From positions 124,001-188,000 of the forward strand of contig JAHIVW010000003.1 of assembly GCA_018816245.1 (NCBI GenBank): 64,000 bases of DNA, given 5' to 3'. Of the stretch, positions 18,357-20,941 are shown piece after piece. Origin of the DNA: Nanobdellota archaeon (GTDB taxonomy: Archaea; Aenigmatarchaeota; Aenigmatarchaeia; QMZP01). The first letter of the stretch is position 1. Every line of letters starts with the position of its first letter. The position numbers and the translations under genes were made by a program. The notes beneath the pieces were generated by a model. It saw only the letters and a list, made by a program, of their open reading frames with translations, ran no database searches and had not been told where the DNA came from.

Positions 18357-18737
18357 CTACGCCTTTGTTTCCTCGGCTGGTTTTTCTTCTTTCTTTTCGT
18401 CAGCCTTTGGTTTTTCAGCAGGTTTCTCTTCCTTTTTTTCCTCAGCAACCTTCTTCTCGGTCTTGGCGATCCTGCGTTCCTGCTTTTCCTTCAGGTACAG
18501 AGGAATCTTGTCTGCACTTGCGTACGCAAACACATACACCTTTGAGGCGCCACGGCCGGTCTTGGTGAAGATTTTCTGAATGACCACGGTGTCAGGGTTC
18601 ACACCAATTGCCTTGGCAACATGCGGGAGCATCACCTTTCGCACGGGAGTTGGTTTCCCGGCGTGTTCAATCTCAACAACGGCCTCCTTCCGGCCGAGAA
18701 CTTTATTCTCCTTTGTGGAAAGGACGTTGACATTCAC
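18357..18737 (-). CDS. rps24e: Ribosomal protein eS24 with Lys/Glu/Pro tail
   Basis: Small-subunit protein shared by archaea and eukaryotes. The core (residues 1-95) has ENKVLGRKEAVVEIEHAGKPTP, then HVAKAIGVNPDTVVIQKIFTKTGRGAS and VYVFAYAS. The last 30 residues are a repetitive KKEEKPAE tail. The start is a GTG at 18737, five bases after the stop of the histone-fold gene, so the two form an operon. Normal archaeal eS24 is about 100 residues; the tail accounts for the 126. Confidence 0.94.
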   Translation of the reverse strand: MNVNVLSTKENKVLGRKEAVVEIEHAGKPTPVRKVMLPHVAKAIGVNPDTVVIQKIFTKTGRGASKVYVFAYASADKIPLYLKEKQERRIAKTEKKVAEEKKEEKPAEKPKADEKKEEKPAEETKA

Positions 18738-18742
18738 AGGAA

Positions 18743-19177
18743 TCAGAGCTCTTCAGGGTCAAGTCGCCCGAGATCACGTTCAAGCTTCGCAATGTCTGCC
18801 TTGATGGCGTCGAGATGAGCGAGGATCCGGTCCTTCTCTTTCTTGAATTCCTCGAGATTCTCGTACATCGCGATTGCGCTCTTGAACTCATGAAGATGGA
18901 GCATGGTGTACGGGACTTTGTTCATTTCATGGGAAACGGACTCAGCGAGCTTGGCAAGCCACTTGTTCATGGCAATCTTAACTTCCTTCTTGATCATCTT
19001 GTCGCTGTCCAGATTCTTCTTCATGAGCCGGACAACGGCCGCGGTCGGGAAGGGCATCTTCTCGTCTTCTTCCTCAGAGATTTCTTCCTCTACGATGCCA
19101 TCAGCTGGTGCTTCCTCTTGTGTTCGTTCCAGCTGGTCCTCTGGTTTCTCGTTCAGCTGGGATTCATCTGCTGTCAT
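18743..19177 (-). CDS. Histone-fold protein with acidic N-tail and C-terminal coiled coil
   Basis: 144 residues. Residues about 41-108 align by eye with the archaeal histone fold: PFPTAAVVRLMKKNL corresponds to helix 1 with its conserved Pro and Arg, KKEVKIAMNKWLAKLAESVS to the long helix 2, and YTMLHLHEFKSAIAMY to helix 3. Unlike normal 65-70 residue archaeal histones, it has about 40 acidic N-terminal residues (EEEISEEEDE) and a C-terminal helical, coiled-coil-like extension (about 110-144). A strong GGAGGT lies 8 bp before the ATG. It heads an operon with eS24. It may bind DNA as a variant histone, or be a histone-fold protein with another partner. Confidence 0.65.
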   Translation of the reverse strand: MTADESQLNEKPEDQLERTQEEAPADGIVEEEISEEEDEKMPFPTAAVVRLMKKNLDSDKMIKKEVKIAMNKWLAKLAESVSHEMNKVPYTMLHLHEFKSAIAMYENLEEFKKEKDRILAHLDAIKADIAKLERDLGRLDPEEL

Positions 19178-19270
19178 AACAATACCTCCGTGGGTTCTGT
19201 TGCTATAGCAAGAATGCTTATTAAGAGTTAAATAGGTTAGTTAAATACCTGCTGAGCACGTGATGCTTCT

Positions 19271-20941
19271 ATGACCCTTTCCTGGACCCGATTGGCCCTG
19301 CTCCTGATTCCAGTCCTGCTGGCGATCGGTTTTGGTCTCTATCAGGTCATTCCTGACCTCTATCCCGTGAGCTTTCTCCTCTTCGTGGTCCTCGTTTTCA
19401 TGGTCCTTTACAACGACCGGAAGAAATTCGAGCGACAATCGATCATGTTCCTCCGCAAGACCACCCGGGGTCGGCACATCCTGATCTGGCTCGGATCCCA
19501 CGGCCGGGGCTTCTGGAAGCTGCTCGGGATGATCGGGGTTGCCTTTGGCTTTTTCTTCTCGATCTGGATGTTCATCATTCTGGTTCAAATCACGATCCAG
19601 GGGTTGTTGTCGACAACGTCTGTGCCAGGGCTGTCTCTGGTTCTCCCGTCACCAACCGCATCACCGGTGATCGCGCCCGGGGTGTTCGGGGTCCCCTTCT
19701 GGTTCTGGATCATCAGCATTGCGCTCCTCGTAATCGTGCACGAAGGGTTCCATGGGATCTTCGTTGCCCGGGAGAAGATGCGCATTAAATCCATGGGGAT
19801 TGGCGTGCTTGCGGTGCTCCCACTGGCATTTGTGGAACCAGATGAGGAACAACTTAGAAAAGGGCCGTTCTGGGCACAGCAACGGGTCTATGCTGCAGGA
19901 AGTTTTGCGAACTTCCTTCTGGCGGGGTTGTCTGTTTTCCTCTTGGTGGGACTGCTGATGAGTGCCTATGCTGTTCAGGGCGTTGCCTTTGGCAGCTATG
20001 GTGCGAGCGCGGTTCCTGTTTCCTCCTTGGCAACGATGAACGGCCAGCCCATCACCGATCTTGCTGCTGCAATCACCGATCTTGACAACAGGACGCTGCT
20101 CGAATTCACCACGACTGACGGAACATCCTATCTTGCGACGGTGTCGCTGTTGAAAGAACAGAATCTTGCTAATGAGGAACTTGTCTTGTATGACGATTAC
20201 GGGGCCGCGCGTGCCCAACTTGTTGGAACAATAACCGCGATTGACAGCAAGCCGATCATCAACCTGAGCACCTTGCACGATGCGCTTGTTACAGCCGGTC
20301 CTAATGCAACGGTTGCTGTCACGACGGTGAACGGAACAGAAGAAGACACTACGCCTGTTTACCTGAAACCAGAGCCGGTTCCGTCCTTTACCTCAACGCC
20401 GATGATTGATGCAGAACTCTGGCTTGAACAATATATCCCCGGAACCGTTGGCTTCGTGAATGGCGCGACAGCGTTCTCGAATGCGATCCTTGGGACAACA
20501 GTAGCAACGACGTGGCAAACAATCCAGATCGACAAACAATTCTGGAACTATGCAGCTGAAACGTTTCCTGTCCTTACTGAGGAGGCAACGCAGAACACCC
20601 AGAAATTAACAATCCTTGAAGAGGAGTATCCTCGGTCAGGATATCTTGGCATCGCCTTTGTGCAGGAAGATCGCACCGTGATCGAGTCCCTCAAACCAGC
20701 GGAAGGGCTTGTGACCTTCATTGGCGGATTGCTTGCCTTCCTGTTCATTATCAATTTCGGTGTTGGTGCGTTCAATCTGCTGCCGATCGGCGGCATCGGA
20801 TTGGATGGCTACCGGATGTGGGAAACATTGCTGAAACGGGTTGTGCCGAAGCGACAGAAGATCGTCATGAAAGTGGTGAGCTGGATTACAATTATCTTCA
20901 TCGTGTTGAATCTGGCGTTGGCGCTTCGTGGTGTTTTCTGA
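19271..20941 (+). CDS. Site-2-type membrane metalloprotease (M50 family)
   Basis: Intramembrane zinc protease. The 556 residues have N-terminal membrane helices, the zinc motif HEGFH (His157, Glu158, His161) inside a hydrophobic segment, and a PDZ-like extracytoplasmic region (about 235-370). The second metal motif NLLPIGGIGLDGYRMW near residue 505 is followed by the last helix. This is the S2P/RseP architecture used to cut membrane-bound regulators or signal peptide remnants. The promoter box TTAAATACC is about 30 bp before the ATG, divergent from the histone-fold operon. The substrate is unknown. Confidence 0.9.
   Translation: MTLSWTRLALLLIPVLLAIGFGLYQVIPDLYPVSFLLFVVLVFMVLYNDRKKFERQSIMFLRKTTRGRHILIWLGSHGRGFWKLLGMIGVAFGFFFSIWMFIILVQITIQGLLSTTSVPGLSLVLPSPTASPVIAPGVFGVPFWFWIISIALLVIVHEGFHGIFVAREKMRIKSMGIGVLAVLPLAFVEPDEEQLRKGPFWAQQRVYAAGSFANFLLAGLSVFLLVGLLMSAYAVQGVAFGSYGASAVPVSSLATMNGQPITDLAAAITDLDNRTLLEFTTTDGTSYLATVSLLKEQNLANEELVLYDDYGAARAQLVGTITAIDSKPIINLSTLHDALVTAGPNATVAVTTVNGTEEDTTPVYLKPEPVPSFTSTPMIDAELWLEQYIPGTVGFVNGATAFSNAILGTTVATTWQTIQIDKQFWNYAAETFPVLTEEATQNTQKLTILEEEYPRSGYLGIAFVQEDRTVIESLKPAEGLVTFIGGLLAFLFIINFGVGAFNLLPIGGIGLDGYRMWETLLKRVVPKRQKIVMKVVSWITIIFIVLNLALALRGVF

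Follow-up and report, generated by a model that had tools for sequence, protein, structure and literature searches.

The gene at positions 18743-19177 of the window (the whole stretch of archaeal DNA that was analysed, 64,000 nucleotides long) very probably encodes a coiled-coil (CC) archaeal histone, a protein that would assemble into a DNA-bridging tetramer and carry an acidic tail lowering its affinity for DNA. The protein is filed in this class because it combines a histone fold, a C-terminal helix with a heptad pattern and a characteristic set of basic positions, and because its homologues occur in groups named for CC histones, whose carriers include Aenigmatarchaeota and Methanobacteriota (Schwab et al., 2024, PMC11390915). 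The source genome comprises 886 kb on 6 contigs, and the features of the locus are as follows.

18743..19177, reverse strand: CC histone gene, 144 amino acids (open reading frame; PF00808 above cut-off; orthologues)
19184..19189, reverse strand: Shine-Dalgarno sequence GGAGGT, 6 bases before the ATG (sequence; start scoring)
19058..19177, reverse strand: acidic N-tail, residues 1-40, predicted disordered (composition; pLDDT)
18857..19057, reverse strand: histone fold, residues 41-107, basic (AlphaFold model, PDB fold matches, conservation)
18764..18856, reverse strand: C-terminal coiled-coil helix, residues 108-138 (AlphaFold model, heptad test)
18357..18737, reverse strand: eS24 ribosomal protein gene (PF01282, 57 bits)
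19271..20941, forward strand: M50 family membrane peptidase gene, divergent (PF02163; synteny)

The open frame is a real gene and not a chance one, since a first sample of relatives yielded homologues of 33-68% identity in 25 other genomes. It starts with ATG, and the strong GGAGGT pointed out in the first-pass annotation does lie upstream of that codon. The same annotation had proposed a three-helix archaeal histone fold, and three kinds of evidence agree with it. First, the PF00808 profile (archaeal histone / CBF-NF-Y) matches residues 43-84, covering alpha-1 and alpha-2, with 23.0 bits against a curated cut-off of 21.4 bits. Second, prediction of the monomer structure, one of the checks that had been proposed, returned a histone fold: AlphaFold places its helices at residues 45-55, 64-85 and 95-106, or four helices overall with the C-terminal one (mean pLDDT 73 and pTM 0.50 from a 27-row alignment, with block means of about 78-94 across residues 41-140). 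Third, the best 50 matches listed by Foldseek against the PDB are all histone-fold proteins (NF-YB, Dpb4, H2A/H2B and others), although none of these fold matches was better than E 0.001 (the best reached 1.4e-3). When the profile of the CC core was compared with that of 16 canonical archaeal histones, it gave P 3.7e-5 over alpha-1 and alpha-2, a value obtained with the histone core alone and more homologues, against P 0.47 for a reversed decoy. With the full alignment, hhalign found no match to one canonical histone and reached no better than P 0.008 against 16 of them. Searches of PDB sequences with the protein (phmmer) and with its profile (hmmsearch) found no histone; their hits were all weak and fell on coiled-coil and other proteins. 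Matches to Bacillus HBL/Nhe in Pfam and NCBIfam fell under the cut-offs, lay over the helical part and were rejected as helix artefacts.

The fold itself is basic (residues 41-107, computed pI 9.5), and its DNA face carries R50, K53, K63 and K67. R50 and K67 are each kept in 58 of 63 homologues, and positions 53 and 63 are K or R in all 63, so the conserved basic surface residues whose absence had been named as grounds for abandoning the histone assignment are present in 58-63 of 63 homologues. Equated by spacing from the first residue of each set rather than by direct alignment with HMfC, the four correspond to R32, K35, R45 and K49, the basic positions of CC histones according to Schwab et al. 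(2024, PMC11390915). The loop-2 RKT DNA-contact motif of canonical wrapping histones is absent: positions 88-92 read VPYTM. Among 16 canonical histones, K53 and T54 of that motif are invariant and R52 is nearly so.

Beyond the fold, the C-terminal coiled-coil extension claimed at first reading is recovered as a single, continuous helix of 31 residues in the AlphaFold monomer, with near-perfect heptads. The a/d positions are occupied by L108, F111, K115, I118, L122, I125, I129, L132 and L136; over helix 108-138, large hydrophobics make up on average a fraction of 0.83 at a/d positions across the family versus 0.09 elsewhere, and the 3-4 heptad pattern was equalled by 1 of 20,000 shuffles. This architecture suggests how the protein might act. 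Two chains would pair through their histone folds, and the basic alpha-1 face of this dimer (R50, K53, K63, K67) would bind a DNA duplex. By analogy with HMfC, the Methanothermus fervidus CC histone (Mfer0945, E3GZL0) for which DNA bridging has been shown in vitro (PMC11390915), two such dimers would join into a tetramer by packing their C-terminal helices as a coiled coil, and the DNA-binding faces at opposite ends of that tetramer would bridge two duplexes. Two DNA strands would thus probably be clipped together, not wrapped. Wrapping is presumably left to a separate, tail-less canonical histone of 69 amino acids in the same genome (G000:C4:249218-249406), which matches HMfA in the PDB; a search for such a canonical protein elsewhere in the genome was among the checks originally suggested. 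The early guess of a bridging histone therefore holds in the form of a CC histone, by way of the HMfC comparison.

The 40-residue acidic N-terminal tail was also described correctly: residues 1-40 contain 17 D/E and 3 K/R (computed pI 4.1), and pLDDT is below 50 over residues 1-34. The tail, which would be disordered, probably lowers affinity by competing with DNA for binding to the basic face; acidic tails have been suggested to inhibit DNA binding by CC histones (PMC11390915). A chaperone-like partner had been offered as the other option, that is, a histone-fold chaperone or heterodimer partner whose acidic tail would shield canonical histones or evict them and which would not organise DNA itself. 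The acidic tail, the overall pI of 4.8 computed for the whole protein and the presence of a canonical histone in this genome would fit, but nothing found supports the role itself. The basic residues of the DNA face are near invariant while net tail charge spans -34 to +8 among 63 sequences (-14 in the window protein; some start codons are uncertain, so single tail charges, above all the extremes, need care). Acidity cannot be the core function, given that the tail is basic or very short in some orthologues, and family member HMfC bridges DNA (PMC11390915). We consider the chaperone reading improbable.

Against this variation in the tail stands a core (residues 43-139) that is 97 residues long in 62 of 63 sequences; the remaining one is truncated by its contig. 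Two loci from one genus of the same family (g7; L022 in G020 and L023 in G006) encode basic N-tails starting MTKKAK (MTKKAKEAKKAKPKQKP...), whereas their close relatives have tails of the opposite, acidic charge. At another (L016 / L064, genome G019), the CC histone lies in a 258-residue open frame, so that its N-tail is possibly far longer, with an uncertain start. One speculative reading, to which we give a small chance, is that evolution has tuned the N-tail as an electrostatic switch: acidic-tailed members would be self-inhibited and the basic-tailed ones of g7 strong bridgers. If true, this would give prokaryotes an equivalent of regulation through histone tails. The series of tail charges over a constant 97-residue core offers a natural set for testing the published idea of tail inhibition.

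Homologues are found in 20 of 24 genomes of the source organism's own family and in 37 of 156 of its phylum; one Iainarchaeota genome also has one. The window protein is 65-69% identical to those in named Candidatus Aenigmatarchaeota genomes, and in the tree it groups among Aenigmatarchaeota sequences. The Methanobacteriales, in which 95 of 100 sampled genomes have a homologue (including 46 of 46 passing a 99% completeness filter), form a well-supported group, and homologues were found in Methanobacteriaceae. One Methanobacteriales genome carries two tandem CC histone genes (L144, G092:C1:641326-642520), and G091 and G139 have two close copies each.

The window histone is flanked by genes for eS24, an M50 peptidase and Ig-domain proteins. 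The eS24 gene starts 5 bases past the histone stop on the same strand and is probably translationally coupled to the histone gene; it begins with GTG, and its K/E-rich C-terminal tail extends beyond the PF01282 domain. Of the operon with eS24 claimed in the first-pass annotation, the shared strand and the 5 bp spacing stand; the pairing is not kept in relatives. None of the relatives' loci examined has eS24 beside the histone: where a relative has both genes, eS24 is on another contig or, in the single-contig genome G020, about 105 kb off (eS24 at 308.6 kb, histone at 414.0 kb). Because the linkage is peculiar to this genome, it carries no functional signal for the CC histone family, and the adjacency is a local accident. 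Nor does the high expression deduced from the coupling survive, the linkage being unconserved; the sole CC histone for which Schwab et al. report expression, that of Methanobrevibacter smithii, is expressed at a low level (PMC11390915). For the same reasons (eS24 far off or on another contig, and adjoining the histone at no relative's locus), there is next to no chance that this is a ribosome-linked protein, an idea prompted by the same-strand eS24 gene only 5 bp away.

The divergent M50 gene is a different matter. It is the conserved neighbour, directly adjoining the histone gene in about 15 of 22 genomes and mostly divergent (a count from the locus map); genes for eS6, an OB-fold protein and a Rad50/SMC-like protein often lie beyond it in the family. 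In the window, only a short divergent intergenic stretch (19177-19271) separates the pair, which is kept in most of the family. In G020, the M50 gene near the histone (L061, 3726-5129) is split by stops into three same-frame open segments and looks like a pseudogene or the product of sequencing errors. That so frequent a neighbour is divergently transcribed could point to a specific regulator of the NF-Y, NC2 or TAF type, acting for example at the M50 promoter. The best fold matches are indeed NF-YB, Dpb4 and NC2-type proteins, and Schwab et al. note that genome organisation may no longer be the task of some prokaryotic histones (PMC11390915). However, no M50 gene adjoins the homologues in Methanobacteriales, where the surroundings differ (QPRTase, ZPR1-like and 3H-domain genes), and the basic DNA face is kept; a regulator is accordingly a very improbable reading.

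The protein is thus a new member of a family described in 2024, and the homologue search that had been recommended found relatives in groups named for that family (PMC11390915). The early claim that its architecture is absent from standard archaeal histones is right in that it differs from canonical ones, but the architecture was already known, having been described as that of CC histones (PMC11390915). What is added is a set of well-supported CC histones from a little-studied DPANN lineage that has a canonical histone alongside a probable bridging one. Like CC histones such as HMfC, the window protein has a histone fold followed by one long C-terminal coiled-coil helix, and it shares with the class the basic positions matching R32, K35, R45 and K49, the same groups of hosts and an acidic, predicted disordered tail; highly acidic disordered tails are common among CC histones (PMC11390915). 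Its homology link to HMfC runs through the order of the latter, Methanobacteriales. HMfC lacks tails, unlike the window protein with its 40 acidic N-terminal residues, and CC histones are described by Schwab et al. as single-gene operons (PMC11390915), whereas here eS24 directly follows. The Methanococcales (Mc) histone MJ1647 likewise joins a histone fold to a C-terminal extension for tetramerisation, and the protein bridges DNA (PMC10516927); that extension is a two-helix handshake, in contrast to the one long heptad helix (in the monomer model) and acidic N-tail seen here. In RdgC histones, too, the fold is followed by a long C-terminal helix, for which a tetrameric coiled coil is predicted, but their genes, known from certain Bacillus and Halobacteria, come first in operons that also encode RdgC-like and membrane proteins (PMC11390915), and the window locus shows no neighbours of this kind. 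With canonical HMfA/HMfB, finally, the protein shares homology over alpha-1 and alpha-2, R50 and K53 matching the alpha-1 basic residues; it differs from them in having lost the loop-2 RKT motif and gained the tail and the C-terminal helix.
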